64,000 nt of DNA, taken from positions 234,936 to 298,935 of the forward strand of contig NZ_CM001514.1 of assembly GCF_000263715.2 (NCBI RefSeq), written 5' to 3'. The notes under the pieces were generated by a model, which worked only from the letters and a program-made list of their open reading frames with translations, made no database searches and had not been told where the DNA came from. This stretch comes from Pseudomonas synxantha BG33R. GTDB lineage: Bacteria; Pseudomonadota; Gammaproteobacteria; Pseudomonadales; Pseudomonadaceae. Each line of letters begins with the position of its first letter. The stretch's first letter is position 1. Positions 5,124 to 57,179 of the stretch are shown here, piece by piece. A program made the translations under genes and the position numbers.

Positions 5124-5696
5124 ATGGCCGTCCCAGACGATCCACCCAGCGACGAATCGCTGCTGGCCCGCTACCGAACCGGTGATGCTGGCGCATTTGA
5201 AGCCCTCTACGCGCGCCACCGTCAGGGCCTTTACCGCTTCCTCGTGTCCCTGTGCAACAAAGCCGACCTGGCTGAAGAAATCTACCAGGACACCTGGCTC
5301 AGCTTGATCCGCAGCACCACCCAGCCACAAGGCCGGGCGAGTTTTCGTACCTGGCTGTTCCAGATCGCCCGCAACCGCCTGATCGACCACTGGCGCAAGC
5401 ACGGCATCCACAACCCCTTGCACGACAGCTACGATGAACAGCTGCACGCCCAACCCGACGACAGCGCCGGCCCCGAGCAACAACTGAGCCTGAGCCGCGA
5501 CCAGGCGCGCCTCGACGCCGCCCTGCAAGAACTGCCCGAAGACCAGCGCGAGGTGTTTTTGTTACGCCTGCATGGCGACCTCGAAGTGCCGCAAATCGCC
5601 ACCCTCACCGGCGCCCCGCTGGAAACCGTAAAAAGCCGCTTGCGCTACGCCCTACAAAAATTGCGGCGCCTGCTGGCCGAGGAGGTACCTGTATGA
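5124..5696 (+). CDS. ECF-family RNA polymerase sigma factor
   Basis: A 190-residue sigma-70 family protein of ECF type. Region 2 spans about residues 22-88 (EALYARHRQGLYRFL, EEIYQDTWL, FRTWLFQIARNRLIDHWR) and region 4 about 130-185 (LPEDQREVFLLRLHGDLEVPQIA, then the helix-turn-helix ETVKSRLRYALQKLR). The ATG is preceded by AAAAAGGAG. The last codons overlap the next gene (ATGA), pairing it with a probable membrane anti-sigma factor. What signal it answers cannot be read; the VWA lipoprotein upstream is a plausible target or sensor. Confidence 0.9.
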   Translation: MAVPDDPPSDESLLARYRTGDAGAFEALYARHRQGLYRFLVSLCNKADLAEEIYQDTWLSLIRSTTQPQGRASFRTWLFQIARNRLIDHWRKHGIHNPLHDSYDEQLHAQPDDSAGPEQQLSLSRDQARLDAALQELPEDQREVFLLRLHGDLEVPQIATLTGAPLETVKSRLRYALQKLRRLLAEEVPV

Positions 5697-6295
5697 CTGA
5701 CCCCCGACACACCCCTGACGACGCGCTGCTCCAGCACTACCGTCAACACAGCAAGGGCGAACCGCCCGCGTCCCTCGACGCCTTCATCCTCAACGCCGCC
5801 CGCCGCGAAGCCCCGCAGCCGCAACCCAGCTTGTGGCAACGCTGGCTGCAAGCCTGCCAACGCCCGCGCTGGCAAATGGCATTCGCCACCGTCGCCGGGT
5901 TGGCGCTGATGATCGGCGTGGTCATGCGCTCCCCCGTGCCGCAACCCGAGATCTCCACCGCGACATTCTCCGCGCTGCGCCACGAAGAAGCCGCCCACCC
6001 AGCGCCGCAAGCGCTTTCCGCCCCCGCGCCAATGGCCCGCATGGCGATGGCGCCACGGGTTGAAAGTGCTCCAGCCCAGGCTGAAATCGCTGACGTAGTG
6101 GCGGCCCCGCCAGCGGAAAGACTCAGCAAGGCGGCGCCGAATGCATTGCCATCTTTGGAGCAGGAGTTGCAGGCCATCGTGAAGCTGCGTGAGGCCGGGG
6201 AGAGCAAGGCGGCTGATGAAAAGCTGTTGGCGCTGCATAAGCGCTTTCCGAAGGAGGATCTGCCGGCGCGGTTGGAGGTGTTGCAGAAGCGCTGA
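5693..6295 (+). CDS. Probable membrane anti-sigma factor
   Basis: A 200-residue protein that overlaps the sigma factor gene by 4 bases. A cytoplasmic N-terminus of about 60 residues is followed by one membrane helix (MAFATVAGLALMIGVVM) and a periplasmic region that is Ala/Pro-rich and ends in a helical segment (LEQELQAIVKLREAGESKAADEKLL). I see no HxxxCxxC zinc motif, so it is not a classical ZAS-type anti-sigma. The role rests on overlap with the sigma gene and on topology. Confidence 0.65.
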   Translation: MTDPRHTPDDALLQHYRQHSKGEPPASLDAFILNAARREAPQPQPSLWQRWLQACQRPRWQMAFATVAGLALMIGVVMRSPVPQPEISTATFSALRHEEAAHPAPQALSAPAPMARMAMAPRVESAPAQAEIADVVAAPPAERLSKAAPNALPSLEQELQAIVKLREAGESKAADEKLLALHKRFPKEDLPARLEVLQKR

Positions 6296-8010: not shown

Positions 8011-9864
8011 ATGATCCTTCCCACCCTCGCAGATGTCGTCGAGCTAGCTAAAAATGGAACGCTGCTAGAGGCCGTTTTCAGCGATCGTTGGCAATGTCGG
8101 TATCAGCACTTCGATGCGATTGCTCAACTACTTGCCGACGCCCACAACGAGGGGGATTTCGATCTACTTGACACTCTCTCAGCCAGCGGGCTTGCCTCTT
8201 TTAGTGGCTTTAAGGGTTATCAAGGGCGAAGGATCTACAGCTTAGCCATAGAGCGCCTAGACACCTCTGCAACAGCTTTACTACCATCACTCAGGATCCT
8301 CGCCGCCCAAGCGGACGGTGAACCTCACGAGGCAACTGAGACCTTTCGAAACTGGTGCAGTGCCTCGCCGAACAGACCGAGGGAGCTAATTGCTCTCGTC
8401 GACTCCGGAGAGCTGGATGTCTGCGACTTCTACAGCTTGCACATTGCCATTCGCAACGGCCTAAAAGCGGATCTGCCCTACTTTACTGAACGGGCGTACG
8501 CGTTGATTGAGAATGGCACGGCTGTTGAGAAGGCTCAGGTTATCCAGGCTTTATCCTCCCCGCCATTTAACGATAACGCCCAATGGCGCCGAGCATTAGA
8601 TGTGATTGGGAAATCAGCTGTAACGGAGTCTGACGATGAGGTTCGTAGTGCACTGGTAAGAACACTATTGAGTTTCACAGAGTCGATTCCACAGCATTTC
8701 GCAATGGAGCTTGAAGATCTGACTGGCCAGGCCTCTCATCCGACCACATCAAAGGTTGCTCACCATCTTGCCTACGCACTCGCTTTCAGTTTCAAGGACA
8801 TTGCACCTTCGTTAAGGGCAATGCTGCTGGCGCAGCTCGGAGCCATCCAGCTGGAAGTCCAAACTCAAAAGCTTGTCGACCTTGGCTTGGCAAACCTCGT
8901 AAAAGCAGGCGGCGCCGATGAAGCTCGCGCTTTCATCACTAACCTGCTTCTGCAACCAGGCTCCAATCTTCGGTTTGAGCTTTTCGATTCAACTATCCGA
9001 AACCTCATTGACGGCCCTGCCCAGGACTTCGAGACCTGGATTGTCGACTGGCTGAGGACAGCACCTAACTCGCTGTGCAGAGAAATGAATGAAGGCTTCT
9101 TCCGTAACAAGGAGGAGTACACGTTCCGGCTGGAATTCACCCTGTTCAATTTTACTGAAAGCGAATATGCGTTCATAGCTCGCAGAGCGACGGCGGTCTT
9201 CTTCATGAACCCTGCAATCGCTGCCAGCTTTCTGGTTAATTTAGGGCGATGCGCTCAGCGTGCGAGCATCGACTCTACGCTCGCACACGTTGATCAGCCC
9301 TCTTCTGAGCAAACTCAAGAGCCGCCAAGCGAATCGCAAGGATCTGAAGATTGGGATACCGAAGTGAGCGATCTACTGTTCGACCCGCTGCTAATCAATT
9401 ACACCAGTGCCCAAAAGCATCTTCAGCCTATTGCCGACGACACCAATGACAAAGCCGCTCCGATGGTAAAGCGCGCGCTCAACAGTCTTAAGCAGTACTG
9501 CGATGAAATTGAGAAGGTTGGGTTTATCGTCGAACTCCGGCCCTCTGAGCGTGAAAAACAGTTAGAGGGTCAGCGTCGTTCTGACGTCATGAATGATGCG
9601 ATGCGGGCGAGTCGGAAAGACTCACCCTTTGCCGGCATTTTTGCCGAGAGCATTCTCCTTTATGGAAACGGGATGGTGACATGGATCGAGGACAGCCTGA
9701 GCTCCAACGATGGCGACGAGCAGAGCGAGAGCCAACCTAGGCGCTTGGAGCATCCACTCGCAAGCATAAGCCACAGCGTTGAGTTGCCGCGCGAAGTGAT
9801 TCTCGAACCCGTCGGTTTGCAGATGAAGTTGCTGAGCCTTCAAAACGTAGGTAAACCAGAATGA
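8011..9864 (+). CDS. Large helical-repeat-like protein, first gene of a candidate two-gene defence pair
   Basis: The start at 8011 is chosen because GAGGAGCC lies just before the ATG; the frame is open further upstream but without a ribosome site. The 617-residue product is almost wholly helical, with repeated two-helix units between about residues 20 and 430 (for example LPSLRILAAQADGE, VRSALVRTLLSF, LVDLGLANLVKAGGADEA), which suggests HEAT/ARM-like repeats. An acidic Ser/Gln-rich linker follows (around 430-460). I recognise no catalytic motif or named family. The stop overlaps the next gene's start (ATGA), so the two proteins are made together and probably act as a complex. Base composition is less GC-rich than the flanking core genes. 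Confidence 0.75.
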   Translation: MILPTLADVVELAKNGTLLEAVFSDRWQCRYQHFDAIAQLLADAHNEGDFDLLDTLSASGLASFSGFKGYQGRRIYSLAIERLDTSATALLPSLRILAAQADGEPHEATETFRNWCSASPNRPRELIALVDSGELDVCDFYSLHIAIRNGLKADLPYFTERAYALIENGTAVEKAQVIQALSSPPFNDNAQWRRALDVIGKSAVTESDDEVRSALVRTLLSFTESIPQHFAMELEDLTGQASHPTTSKVAHHLAYALAFSFKDIAPSLRAMLLAQLGAIQLEVQTQKLVDLGLANLVKAGGADEARAFITNLLLQPGSNLRFELFDSTIRNLIDGPAQDFETWIVDWLRTAPNSLCREMNEGFFRNKEEYTFRLEFTLFNFTESEYAFIARRATAVFFMNPAIAASFLVNLGRCAQRASIDSTLAHVDQPSSEQTQEPPSESQGSEDWDTEVSDLLFDPLLINYTSAQKHLQPIADDTNDKAAPMVKRALNSLKQYCDEIEKVGFIVELRPSEREKQLEGQRRSDVMNDAMRASRKDSPFAGIFAESILLYGNGMVTWIEDSLSSNDGDEQSESQPRRLEHPLASISHSVELPREVILEPVGLQMKLLSLQNVGKPE

Positions 9865-50268: not shown

Positions 50269-51189
50269 TCAAACCGCCACACTTACCTGCTGGCTATCCA
50301 CTTCCACCAACACCTCAATCATCGCCTTCGCCGCCGGCGACAACCGCGACCCAGTGCGACTGACAATCCCGCAACGCGCACTCATGGTCTCCATGTTCTG
50401 TGGCAGGTTGCGCCAGTGCAGCAGCACCAGCGAACCGCTGGCCACATCCTCGGCGAACGCTTCCTCGGTGCCCACGCCGATGGCGTTGGATTGCAGCACT
50501 ATCTTCACCAGCGCAGGGAAGTGCTCGGTCTGGATGCTCGGGGAAAAATCCATGCGCCCACTCAGGTTCGCCAGCAGTTTGCGAATGCCCTGGGAGATCA
50601 GCGGCGCGGCCAGTGGATAGTCGAACATATCGTTGGTCGACAGGCTGTCCTTGGCCAGCAACGGGTGCCCGGGGCGGCAGAAAAAGACGCCGCGCTTGGG
50701 TGTCAGTGCGCGGGTCTGGAAATTCGGGTCGGCTTCGAACTGGCGGATGTCGGCGATAAAGAATTCGATCTCTTCACGGCTCAGGCTGCGGCTGAGGGTT
50801 TCCCAGTTGTCCACCTGGAAACTCGTGCGGATTTTCGGGTGGGCGTTGATAAATCGCGCCACCGCATCCGGCACCAGTTTCGCGGCGGGCGCCGGGCCGC
50901 AGCCGAAGCGCAGGTCGCCGGCGTCGAGCTTGGTCATGCGCGTCACTTCACTGCTCAGCAGCGCTGCGCCATGCACCAGGCTCAGGGCATGTTGCAGCAC
51001 CACCTGGCCTTCCGGTGTAGGGCGCAGGTCCTTGTGGCCACGGTCCACCAGCACGCAGCCAAACTCCTGTTCCAGCCCCTGGATGCTGCGGCTGAACGCC
51101 GGCTGAGTGATGCCCATGGCGTCTGCGGCACGCACGAAACTGCGGTGTTCGTTGAGGGCGATGAAGTAGCGCAGTTGGCGAAGATCCAT
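50269..51189 (-). CDS. LysR-family regulator next to the dioxygenase gene
   Basis: The start at 51189 (MDLRQLRYFIALNEHRSF) gives 306 residues: winged HTH (AADAMGITQPAFSRSIQGLEQEFG) and a LysR substrate-binding domain (from about residue 90, LRFGCGPAP). It is divergent from the AtsK-like dioxygenase. Close in sequence to the LysR at 56235 (both have LRFGCGPAPA and R-L-SP-A-AM endings), so they are paralogues that may share signals such as sulfate status. Confidence 0.9.
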   Translation of the reverse strand: MDLRQLRYFIALNEHRSFVRAADAMGITQPAFSRSIQGLEQEFGCVLVDRGHKDLRPTPEGQVVLQHALSLVHGAALLSSEVTRMTKLDAGDLRFGCGPAPAAKLVPDAVARFINAHPKIRTSFQVDNWETLSRSLSREEIEFFIADIRQFEADPNFQTRALTPKRGVFFCRPGHPLLAKDSLSTNDMFDYPLAAPLISQGIRKLLANLSGRMDFSPSIQTEHFPALVKIVLQSNAIGVGTEEAFAEDVASGSLVLLHWRNLPQNMETMSARCGIVSRTGSRLSPAAKAMIEVLVEVDSQQVSVAV

Positions 51190-51371
51190 ATGCTTTCCCG
51201 GCATTTTAAAAATAGGTCGAAGGCATTTGCGACTAAGCAAGCTGAGGTTTTAAATGCAAGCTCTTATTCCGTCAACGAAGCATTGATTCATTTGCTAGAT
51301 CTAAAATGCATATGGATAGAGCGTTGCTGGAAAGCATCTCCACCATCAGCAGGCACATGAGGGTCATCACA

Positions 51372-54060: not shown

Positions 54061-54186
54061 CGCCATCGCAGGCAAGCCAGCTCCCACAGGGGAATGCATT
54101 TCAAATGTGGAAACCGGCCTGCCAGCCGACGCCCCTCTACCTGACTCCCCGCGATCCAACTGTGGGAGCAGGCTTACCCGGCGAAG
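54061..54186. repeat. Two REP elements, loosely spaced
   Basis: ATCGCAGGCAAGCCAGCTCCCACA at 54065 and TGTGGGAGCAGGCTTACCCGGCGAA at 54161, in facing orientation. The second overlaps the end of the HIT gene (54174). They mark the left edge of the AT-rich insertion. Confidence 0.7.
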
Positions 54187-54635
54187 GACCTGATGTGAGC
54201 AGCCAGCTCTGCCAGCGCTTTATCATCTGCCCTGGCAGCGTCATGGGAGGAGACATAGCCTTCATAACGCTCAAAATATTTGTCCTGGGTCGAACTGATT
54301 TTTTTGAAGGCGCTGTCTTCCCCGGTCCCGTGCATCGGGAATAATTTGGCGTGCAGATGATCGACGCCGTAACCCTCCAGAATCATGCCCGTTCTAGCCA
54401 CACCTTTTAGCGCTTCGTCCAAAAGCTTCGCCGTCTTCTTGGCTGCGATGACCAAGTCACACAGCACGGCGTCCGGTTCGGCAAACGCATAGCTGCCGTG
54501 ATGGGTTTTGGGGATAACCACACTGAACCCCGGCGTATTGGGAAATATGGAGAGAAAGGCCATGTGGGTCTGGTCTTCCCACAGGAGGTGGGAGGTTGCA
54601 GTACCGCGGGCAATGCTGCAAAAGATACACGCCAT
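54174..54635 (-). CDS. HIT-family nucleotide hydrolase, candidate self-immunity protein
   Basis: A 153-residue HIT protein: N-terminal CxxC (MACIFCSIARG), the LSIFPNTPGFSVVIPKTHH strand pair and the histidine triad DHLHAKLFPMH (His93, His95 presumed nucleophile; the third triad position is Lys97). HIT enzymes hydrolyse AMP-phosphoramidates. MccH-type HIT hydrolases detoxify microcin C by cutting its phosphoramide bond. Its ATG overlaps the stop of the MccB-like gene (TAATG), so the two are translationally coupled, which supports a joint role. Not shown by sequence alone. Confidence 0.85.
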   Translation of the reverse strand: MACIFCSIARGTATSHLLWEDQTHMAFLSIFPNTPGFSVVIPKTHHGSYAFAEPDAVLCDLVIAAKKTAKLLDEALKGVARTGMILEGYGVDHLHAKLFPMHGTGEDSAFKKISSTQDKYFERYEGYVSSHDAARADDKALAELAAHIRSFAG

Positions 54636-55624
54636 TAAACACCTGCCTCATTGTCGTCAAAATATCGGGTTGTGTATCCCAAAGGCCACTGGGCGGCATC
54701 CCATTCAATATAGTGCGATCGTTGTTCGCCAAAGAGATTAGACGCGATGGAGGTTATTATTCCGGAGGCCATAAGCGCAGCAATATTGAAATTTAAAGGG
54801 CCAAAACTCGGCATTATTGATTGAGGGAGCCTCAGCCAGTGCGTGCTGCTATCCGGACTGAGTGTCGAATGCTGCCTGTCTTTTCCTGAGAAAAAGTTGG
54901 CGATGCAATGGCTGTGTAGATAACCGCCGCTTACTACAGGTATTCCAGCTGTAACTGCCAAATCACTGGCTCTAGATACCAGAGTAGGAGGGTTGTCTGC
55001 GGTAATTGCGATTGCAGAAAAACACCCGGTGTTTAACAGTTCAACAATGTCGTCATAGTTCATTTCCAATTCTGGAGATTGGATTTTTATATTGTCGAAC
55101 CGGTCGTTTATCTCTCGTTGCAGCGTGGCGACTTTGGTGTTACCAATATCGTTTTTTCTCCAAAATAGCTGCCGATTCAGATTGCTACTTTCAATAATGT
55201 CTGGGTCTACTAACGTTAAGTGTTCAACGCCAGCACCAGCGAGCAGCAACGCGACGCTACTGCCAATTCCTCCACATCCGATGACAAGAACCTTAGAGGA
55301 TTTTATTGCTGCGGTATCGTTAATTAAATCGGCGCACGATTTAGCTTTGCAAAGAAGGAAGCTGGTTGTGCGACTTGTGACTGGATTTTTCAGCAAGTTG
55401 CACACTGTATCCACTTCATCTGCTGCGCCGGGAACTAATGCTGCTGCTTGATGTAGTCCTTGTTCAAGAGCAACTACCGTTTGCTCATTGATCTGATAAG
55501 CACCAGCAGGTCCGTTGATCACGGTATGTCCATCGACTAATGAATGAAAGAGCGAGGGTATAACAACGCCAACGGCATTTCCTGAGTTGTCATAAAAACG
55601 AAAGTCTTGATTGGTGTTGTGCAT
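54635..55624 (-). CDS. MccB-like ThiF/E1-type adenylyltransferase
   Basis: A 329-residue E1-like enzyme. Residues 1-100 form an N-terminal domain without metal motifs, comparable to the peptide clamp of MccB. The adenylation core has VIGCGGIG (116-121), Asp140 for ribose, NLNRQ (Arg151-Gln152), Lys164, and Asp210 (ITADNP), then PSFGPLNFNIAALMASGII. The order and spacing resemble MccB of microcin C, which adenylates the C-terminal Asn of MccA. It lacks the two CxxC zinc pairs of MccB, ThiF and MoeB and ends early. Base composition is AT-rich. Downstream of a 72-residue peptide gene that ends in Asn. Confidence 0.85.
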   Translation of the reverse strand: MHNTNQDFRFYDNSGNAVGVVIPSLFHSLVDGHTVINGPAGAYQINEQTVVALEQGLHQAAALVPGAADEVDTVCNLLKNPVTSRTTSFLLCKAKSCADLINDTAAIKSSKVLVIGCGGIGSSVALLLAGAGVEHLTLVDPDIIESSNLNRQLFWRKNDIGNTKVATLQREINDRFDNIKIQSPELEMNYDDIVELLNTGCFSAIAITADNPPTLVSRASDLAVTAGIPVVSGGYLHSHCIANFFSGKDRQHSTLSPDSSTHWLRLPQSIMPSFGPLNFNIAALMASGIITSIASNLFGEQRSHYIEWDAAQWPLGYTTRYFDDNEAGV

Positions 55625-55652
55625 TTTTGTAGCTCTTTAATTAGTCAGGCGA

Positions 55653-55671
55653 TGGCGCTCGTGAAGCGCCA
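55653..55671 (-). terminator. Hairpin between the precursor and adenylase genes
   Basis: T-GGCGCT-CGTGA-AGCGCC-A between the precursor stop (55687) and the enzyme start (55624). There is no strong T-run. In microcin C operons a hairpin between mccA and mccB keeps the peptide message abundant; a similar role is possible. Confidence 0.55.
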
Positions 55672-55686
55672 CCGCTGTTATGAAGC

Positions 55687-55905
55687 TTAATTGCAGCGTG
55701 GACTATTCCTCGAAATCACTCCGCCGTCGCATCCACCATCAAAAAACTGTACTGCAAGAGGGAAAATGTTTTGTTGAGCGGACTGGGCAATAGGCGGTTG
55801 AGACACCGCACGTGAAGAGTCAGTTATCACATTTGCTTGCACAGCCGCTGAAACGCCCAGAAGTACCGTGGCAATTCCGAAGATACTTGTCTTGCTAGTG
55901 TTCAT
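55687..55905 (-). CDS. Candidate precursor peptide with secretion-like leader and C-terminal Asn
   Basis: A 72-residue protein with a strong ribosome site (AAGGAAA) before the ATG. Residues 1-24 form a hydrophobic leader with a likely cleavage site AVQA/NV. The remaining 48 residues are Ser/Gln/Asn-rich and end in GGCDGGVISRNSPRCN, with Cys59, Cys71 and terminal Asn72. A terminal Asn is the residue modified in MccA-type microcins. It is the first gene of an operon with the adenylyltransferase and HIT genes. A simple secreted small protein is the alternative. Confidence 0.7.
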   Translation of the reverse strand: MNTSKTSIFGIATVLLGVSAAVQANVITDSSRAVSQPPIAQSAQQNIFPLAVQFFDGGCDGGVISRNSPRCN

Positions 55906-56125: not shown

Positions 56126-56293
56126 ATGAAGAATTTATTGGGTTTTTATTTATTCTTTGTTAAGTTCTTATTGCTGGCATGGATTATATGTTTGCTGAGA
56201 TTTTGGCTAGGGGAAACGAATTCGAATTTTCCGTTTAAATCGCAATATTTTCCAACGCATAAGCATCCTCGTCCCTCTCATCAATCTCCTTGA
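56126..56293 (+). CDS. Possible small membrane peptide
   Basis: From ATG 56126 the frame codes 55 residues: one hydrophobic helix (LLGFYLFFVKFLLLAWIICLL) and a polar His/Pro tail. The 3' part overlaps the end of the LysR gene antisense. GGGGGCGAAC upstream is a fair ribosome site. Divergent from the peptide operon, in the same AT-rich segment. It might be a real small membrane protein or chance. Confidence 0.3.
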   Translation: MKNLLGFYLFFVKFLLLAWIICLLRFWLGETNSNFPFKSQYFPTHKHPRPSHQSP

Positions 56294-57179
56294 TCTGCTC
56301 AATCATCGCCTCCGCCAACGGCGACAAACGATACCCCCCACGGCTGACAATCCCGTAGCGGGTGTAACGCTCCTCCAGGTTTTCATCCAGGCCATCGATC
56401 TTCAAACACACCAGTTCGCCCCGCGCCATGTGCAGCACATCGCTGTTGGCGCTGACGATGCCAATGGCGTCCGAGCGCAGCACCACACCCATCAGGCTAT
56501 AGCCGTTTTCGCACTCCACATTGGGTTGGTAATCGGGCCGGCCGCTGAGGTCGACGATGACCTTGCGCAGGTTCGGCGGGCGAATGGTGACCGCCAGCGG
56601 ATAACTCATCAGTTCATCGGCGCGGATGCTTTCGCGGCCGGCCAGGGGGTGGCCGGCGCGGCAGCAGAAATACCAGCGGCGTGGGCGCAGGCGGTGGGTG
56701 TGGTAGTCGGGGTTGGCTTCGAAGTGGCGAGTGTCGGCGACGAAGAATTCGAACTCTTCGCTGAGCAGGCGTTTGCCCAGGCTTTGCCAGTCATCCACCT
56801 GGAACTGCACGCGGGCCTTGGGGTAGCGCCCGATGAAACTGCCGATGGCGCGCGGGATCAACCCACCTGCCGGGGCCGGGCCGCAGCCGAAGCGCAGTTC
56901 GCCGGCTTCCAGGCCGTTGAACTGGCTGATCTCGTTGGCCAATTGTTGGGCGCCGCTGACCAGGCGCCGGGCATGTTCAAGCAGTACCTGACCTTGCTTG
57001 GTGGGCGCCAGGTCCTTGCGGCCACGGTCTACCAGCTGGCAGCCGGCACTGTGTTCAAGGGCCTGGATGCTGCGACTGAACGCCGACTGCGACAGGTTCA
57101 CGGCCAAGGCTGCCGCGACAAAACTGCGTTGCTCGGCGAGGGCGATGAAGTGGCGAAGCTGGCGCAGATCGATATGCAT
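56235..57179 (-). CDS. LysR-family regulator upstream of the TonB receptor
   Basis: A 314-residue LysR protein: HTH AALAVNLSQSAFSRSIQALEHSAG, effector domain starting LRFGCGPAPAGGLIP, ending LSPLAEAMIEQIKEIDERDEDAY. A paralogue of the regulator at 50269. Divergent from the TonB-dependent receptor at 57335 with 155 bases between, so it probably controls the receptor, perhaps in response to sulfur compounds like its paralogue. Confidence 0.92.
   Translation of the reverse strand: MHIDLRQLRHFIALAEQRSFVAAALAVNLSQSAFSRSIQALEHSAGCQLVDRGRKDLAPTKQGQVLLEHARRLVSGAQQLANEISQFNGLEAGELRFGCGPAPAGGLIPRAIGSFIGRYPKARVQFQVDDWQSLGKRLLSEEFEFFVADTRHFEANPDYHTHRLRPRRWYFCCRAGHPLAGRESIRADELMSYPLAVTIRPPNLRKVIVDLSGRPDYQPNVECENGYSLMGVVLRSDAIGIVSANSDVLHMARGELVCLKIDGLDENLEERYTRYGIVSRGGYRLSPLAEAMIEQIKEIDERDEDAYALENIAI

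Follow-up and report, generated by a model that had tools for sequence, protein, structure and literature searches.

Gene content of the cassette

We analysed a 64-kb stretch (bases 234936–298935; hereafter the window) of the genome of Pseudomonas synxantha BG33R, a single contig of 6.30 Mb. Between a LysR regulator gene and a sulfatase gene, the window contains a cassette of three open reading frames (ORFs), which very probably make and detoxify a microcin C (McC)-like peptide-nucleotide antibiotic. All three ORFs run leftward within window positions 54174–55905, in a patch with a GC content of 45–47%, compared with ~60–63% on either side. A preliminary description, made from the sequence alone, had already reported three leftward genes in an AT-rich patch here, and our ORF check returned the same coordinates. 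The features of the cassette are as follows.

55687..55905, minus strand: mccA-like precursor, 72 aa, with a Sec-signal-like N-terminus, two Cys and a C-terminal Cys-Asn (from the ORF, a crude signal rule and homologues)
55834..55905, minus strand: predicted signal peptide, residues 1–24 (from the sequence; cleavage after AVQA set by eye)
55690..55731, minus strand: residues 59–72, C-DGGVISRNSPR-C-N, a loop bounded by two Cys plus the Asn (nucleotidylation site predicted by analogy to MccA)
55625..55686, minus strand: mccA–mccB spacer with a strong hairpin (RNA fold, -25.5 kcal/mol)
54635..55624, minus strand: MccB-like nucleotidyltransferase, 329 aa, with an RRE-like N-terminal part (~1–100) and a ThiF domain (~104–296)
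54174..54635, minus strand: putative MccH-type HIT phosphoramidase, 153 aa (Pfam match and EGYGVDHLHAKLF motif; F at the HinT His39 position)

The precursor ends in ...SPRCN, and thus in Asn, as had been noted before. Its N-terminus, which the preliminary description did not mention, reads MNTSKTSIFGIATVLLGVSAAVQA^NVIT... and resembles a signal peptide in that it combines a lysine with a hydrophobic stretch and an AVQA site. We placed the cleavage after AVQA by eye (a crude in-house rule chose a site four residues earlier), which leaves a remainder of 48 residues ending in FFDGGCDGGVISRNSPRCN. The precursor fits no Pfam family and has no meaningful NCBIfam match; a search of the database by similarity only gave three relatives at E <= 1 (75–94% identity), all of which end in ...GGCDGGVISRNSPRCN.

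The second gene was said to encode an MccB-like adenylating enzyme with a ThiF domain, and this was borne out. The ThiF domain matches PF00899 (E 1.6e-32), and the enzyme is MccB-like in both sequence and predicted fold, including the N-terminal domain: MccB ranks first in the sequence comparison and provides the top Foldseek matches. Judged from the sequence and the structural model, its architecture, a putative peptide-binding domain followed by a ThiF domain, is that of the MccB-type enzymes that mark mcc clusters.

The ThiF stop and the HIT start overlap (TAATG), in agreement with the coupling described earlier. The product of the third gene matches the HIT family above the Pfam cut-off (PF01230, E 3.9e-7), so that its designation as a HIT hydrolase stands, and the 'HIT triad' attributed to it does not: in the motif H-L-H-A-K, Lys replaces the third His of the classical HinT triad HxHxHxx. 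The MccH clade is defined by the signature ExxxxxHxHxKxx, in which Lys takes the place of the third His, and by a Phe in that of HinT His39 (PMC7157772). The window protein matches this signature in EGYGVDHLHAKLF, and it carries Phe at the His39 position, assigned by alignment, in PNTPGFSVV. By this motif it is a probable member of the MccH clade, and the Lys-for-His replacement strengthens the McC reading. No other close HIT protein was found in the same genome (next match, E 0.16).

Conservation of the precursor at related loci

Related loci were collected from 398 genomes of the genus (9 loci, window included, E <= 1e-30) and from a second search, in which we retained the 16 best of at least 80 loci (34–56% identity over most of the ThiF length). 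Because three loci were common to both, at least 22 are distinct; counts out of 22 refer to loci among the matches listed, and the family size is a lower bound. Flanks of ~6 kb were available for 17 loci and of only ~1.5 kb for five.

An Asn-ending ORF lies directly upstream of the ThiF gene at 21 of the 22 loci. At locus L024 (Xylophilus, ~5600–5945), the signal-bearing precursor frame has an internal stop and still ends in Asn, and the MccB-like and HIT frames are open. As the upstream ORFs had been chosen for their Asn ending, a control with other ThiF loci was needed. With one uniform procedure, an Asn-ending upstream ORF was found at 15/16 named family loci and 5/64 other ThiF loci, and at 14/16 and 0/64, respectively, when the signal rule was added; in this comparison, many control matches begin at the core domain, which makes the placement of their 500-base upstream window less precise, and one of the controls, L029, falls inside the family branch of the ThiF tree.

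A signal-like N-terminus also recurs at these loci. Under the crude signal rule, an in-house rule rather than a trained predictor, 19 of the 21 intact precursors pass, compared with 754 of 10500 shuffled sequences (7.2%); the two failures are those of L010, without K/R near the start, and L027. In 20/21 precursors the Asn is preceded by a Cys at a distance of one or two residues, and at least two Cys are present in 19/21. By their chosen, predicted start codons, the 19 signal-bearing precursors are 63–84 aa long, compared with 7–8 or 17–56 aa for the precursors described in PMC6495379. The mccA–mccB spacer also appears to be structured: the hairpin of the window locus has a z of -4.7 against mononucleotide shuffles, and 16 of 20 folded loci reach z <= -2.

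Alternation of immunity genes

At 21 of the 22 loci, the ThiF gene has beside it, or is fused with, an immunity gene of a type known from McC: MccH-type at 15, S51 at three, an MccE-like acetyltransferase at one, and MccD plus MccE at two. It had been asked whether homologues always stand beside an Asn-ending peptide and a HIT gene; this holds for the peptide at 21/22 loci and fails for the MccH-type HIT gene, which is found at 15/22. The loci with an MccH-motif HIT gene are:

the window, L006, L008, L010, L011, L013, L015, L016, L018, L019, L020, L022, L023, L024 and L028

The ExxxxxHxHxKxx motif occurs in 15 of the 16 HIT ORFs examined, the exception being a second, shorter HIT frame downstream at L028 (Cupriavidus, 8320–8664) that lacks the full motif. 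The His39 position of the motif-bearing proteins is occupied by F in 11/15 and by A or V in 4/15. The neighbouring HIT genes were first flagged by the MccH motifs, which is partly circular; clustering of neighbours based solely on blastp also returned HIT ORFs at 11/17 loci, namely the motif-bearing ones and the extra, shorter ORF of L028.

At L012, L025 and L026, an S51 peptidase takes the place of the HIT protein (PF03575, E 3e-42 at L012 and 8e-43 at L025; the L026 protein is 88% identical to that of L025). S51 proteins named MccG cleave processed McC (PMC9239234), and these three proteins are candidate MccG-type enzymes by family. At L021 (Variovorax), the ThiF protein is fused to a GNAT domain that is 37% identical to the acetyltransferase region of MccE from E. 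coli; MccE acetylates this processed compound too (PMC7157772). L014 and L017 encode full-length homologues of MccE (40–42%) and MccD (49–53%). At L027 (Microbacterium), we found none of MccH, S51, MccE or MccD in a search that did not extend to MccF-type peptidases.

MccD/MccE genes were found at none of the 11 MccH loci with ~6 kb flanks (the other four MccH loci have ~1.5 kb only), and a motif-bearing HIT gene was found at neither MccD/MccE locus. This mutual absence is in keeping with the report that the aminopropyl group added by MccD/E renders McC resistant to MccH (PMC7157772). We regard the alternation of immunity genes as the strongest argument for an aspartamidyl-nucleotide product.

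L014 (7212–9269) and L017 (6982–9108) have further genes between the MccB-like gene and MccD/MccE. They code for a small protein, for a protein resembling cytochrome c, which exceeds the Pfam cut-off at L014 and narrowly misses it at L017, and for a flavoprotein of the flavocytochrome-c-sulfide-dehydrogenase type, whose start looks twin-arginine-like by eye. These redox proteins could possibly tailor the C-terminal Cys in the periplasm.

HIT genes without the biosynthetic pair

A close MccH relative (E <= 1e-25) is present in 41 of 396 genomes of the genus, comprising 8 ThiF carriers and 33 without ThiF; the samples of 396 (HIT) and 398 (ThiF) genomes are nearly, and maybe not wholly, the same. 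In three genomes (G235, G262 and G157), the sulfatase–LysR site holds the HIT gene with ~80–120 bases to LysR; the corresponding interval in the window is 1.6 kb and contains mccA and mccB. In G337, the HIT gene is kept and a partial, gapped ThiF match (42% over 139 columns) lies just upstream. From the HIT-only sites and this partial match, we infer that the mccA–mccB pair was probably lost while the HIT gene was retained. If the cassette works as proposed below, MccH-like genes without ThiF (33/396 genomes) could be interpreted as immunity kept against neighbours.

Search for an exporter

The preliminary description found no adjacent MccC exporter. Our searches agree: E. coli MccC has no match at 1e-4 in the whole 64-kb window or at the 22 loci, five of which have ~1.5 kb flanks. 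No transporter family is common to three or more of the 17 loci with ~6 kb flanks, and the only families that are so shared are ThiF, HIT and one made up of ORFs on the reverse strand within the ThiF gene. Near the window cassette lie an MFS gene, 4 kb away, and a TonB receptor gene, and neither is common to the other 16 loci with such flanks. Because an exporter gene belongs to the minimal three-gene mcc set (PMC9239234), its absence from these searches sets the cassette apart from ordinary members.

Proposed function and alternatives

How might such a cassette work? We consider it to be a microcin C-like system reduced to a minimum, with a precursor that probably carries its own Sec signal, a reading to which we assign a probability of about 0.74. 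Our confidence in McC-like chemistry, judged from the comparison of loci, is high, and that in Sec export of the precursor is moderate. The 72-aa pre-peptide would be made in excess over the enzyme, aided by the hairpin between the first two genes. The MccB-like enzyme would bind it through the N-terminal domain and activate the C-terminal Asn with ATP, leaving an N-P linked AMP. The modified pre-peptide would then exit via Sec, signal peptidase would trim ~24 residues, and the two Cys would form a disulfide loop beside the nucleotide. The product would cross out of the periplasm by some route and enter competitors; after reduction and proteolysis there, the aspartamide-adenylate set free would inhibit aspartyl-tRNA synthetase. 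In the producer, the MccH-type HIT protein would cut the P-N bond of prematurely freed aspartamide-adenylate. The earlier proposal that the three genes make and detoxify a peptidyl nucleotide thus gains support from the motifs, the conservation and the alternation of immunity genes.

Other explanations of the enzyme must be weighed. An ordinary sulfur-carrier E1 of the MoeB/ThiF kind next to an unrelated HIT gene would share the PF00899 domain, and the VIA Z values for ThiF and MoeB are within 1 of that for MccB. However, the enzyme scores far below the NCBIfam equivalog cut-offs for sulfur-carrier enzymes (82 bits vs 275 for ThiF and 59.6 vs 376 for MoeB), all 25 NCBIfam matches listed (of 46) are under their cut-offs, and the partner peptide ends in Cys-Asn, not Gly-Gly. 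The tree of ThiF families places the enzyme family on a separate branch, and MccB ranks first by both sequence and Foldseek; we therefore hold this explanation to be extremely improbable. Formation of a C-terminal macrocycle (a thiolactone or imide) by attack of a Cys or a backbone amide on the activated C-terminus, with the HIT gene there by accident, is less far-fetched, in that related ThiF enzymes (GrcB, EnfB and IndF) of ribosomally synthesized and post-translationally modified peptides (RiPPs) form such rings and a Cys precedes the Asn closely in almost all precursors. Immunity genes of several unrelated kinds, MccD/MccE at two loci among them, would then be unneeded, yet they replace one another next to or inside the ThiF gene, and the top Foldseek matches remain MccB; we consider a macrocycle improbable.

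The product could also be the peptidyl-nucleotide proposed here, exported by an unlinked transporter, with the hydrophobic N-terminus being merely an MccB leader. Long MccA peptides can be processed, as in Yersinia (42 to 11 aa), and the MFS gene is only 4 kb off. However, in 19/21 N-termini a hydrophobic core is accompanied by K/R and an AxA-like site, the MFS gene is not common to the other loci, and the L014/L017 operons include exported-looking redox proteins; this route seems unlikely to us, if by no means fanciful. That the tagged peptide is a signal or self-regulator would fit a system for which antibacterial activity is not known and whose distribution is sparse (9/398 genomes), but several known types of intracellular immunity accompany the cluster, and relatives retain the HIT gene alone, which leaves this explanation with little probability. 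Returning to the Sec-signal system, a wider proposal is that these loci form a separate proteobacterial peptidyl-nucleotide lineage, with a Sec pre-peptide, a tagged C-terminus passing through the Sec channel, a disulfide-looped product, no dedicated pump, swapped immunities and one sub-branch with periplasmic flavoprotein/cytochrome c tailoring; here we would offer even odds.

Comparison with known systems

The E. coli mccABCDE-F cluster likewise has an Asn-ending precursor, an MccB-fold nucleotidyltransferase and a hairpin between its first two genes, and its MccD/MccE have homologues in two relatives of the window cluster. In contrast, its precursor is a heptapeptide, whereas the window encodes a 72-aa pre-peptide with a signal-like N-terminus and a Cys pair; unlike E. 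coli, the window cluster has no MccC match, has HIT immunity, and has an enzyme that lacks the Cys pairs found in the E. coli MccB. The Hyalangium minutum cluster also combines long precursors, MccB and an MccH-clade HIT protein with ExxxxxHxHxKxx, but exports through an ABC exporter with a C39-like peptidase (PMC7157772); in the window none was found, and the signal is Sec-like. The Nocardia vaccinii system, with MccG/S51, resembles L012, L025 and L026 in having an S51 gene beside an MccB-like gene and differs in its cytidine and carboxymethyl chemistry (PMC9239234). The enzymes of pantocin, GrcB, EnfB and IndF are likewise ThiF-like and act on a peptide carboxylate, as predicted for ours; macrocycles or bicycles are reported, and the available sections of these accounts do not mention McC-immunity genes. 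Bufferins and oxazolins, which are MNIO RiPPs, also have Cys-containing precursors, with Sec signal peptides where ours have a Sec-signal-like N-terminus, and differ in their MNIO modifying enzyme and copper-binding function (PMC12452194). For Pseudomonas, putative mcc-like clusters that include MccH homologues were mentioned by Yagmurov et al. (2020), who also report that a standalone Pseudomonas fluorescens MccH homologue gives resistance to McC-like compounds.

We found no description of signal peptides on MccA precursors in the literature searched, whose coverage mostly leaves out subscription papers. Sec signals are described as rare in RiPPs, and their use in the natural host has been experimentally shown for bufferins only (PMC12452194). 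If our reading is correct, three genes, for the precursor, a single enzyme and immunity, would suffice, with general secretion taking over export; the microcin C class would thereby gain its first Sec-dependent member, as far as our literature searches reach, and the short list of Sec-signal RiPPs would lengthen. The cassette would also be a compact means of asking whether a nucleotide-tagged peptide crosses the Sec channel.

Other observations

REP-like (repetitive extragenic palindromic) repeats of ~65 nt lie downstream of the HIT gene (window 54061–54187), with an inverted pair at 54071–54089/54160–54178; with a 4.8-kb query, two relatives returned 109 and 116 matches, and those listed fell mostly within 54061–54187. 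Two LysR genes (window 50269–51240 and 56235–57179) flank the sulfatase/TauD genes, and the copies of one in relatives align with the other at ~70% DNA identity, a possible duplication. Elsewhere, L097 (Acinetobacter plasmid pXBB1-8, 3367–7962) carries tandem ThiF genes and an ABC transporter beside BREX genes, and looks like another ThiF-RiPP cluster.
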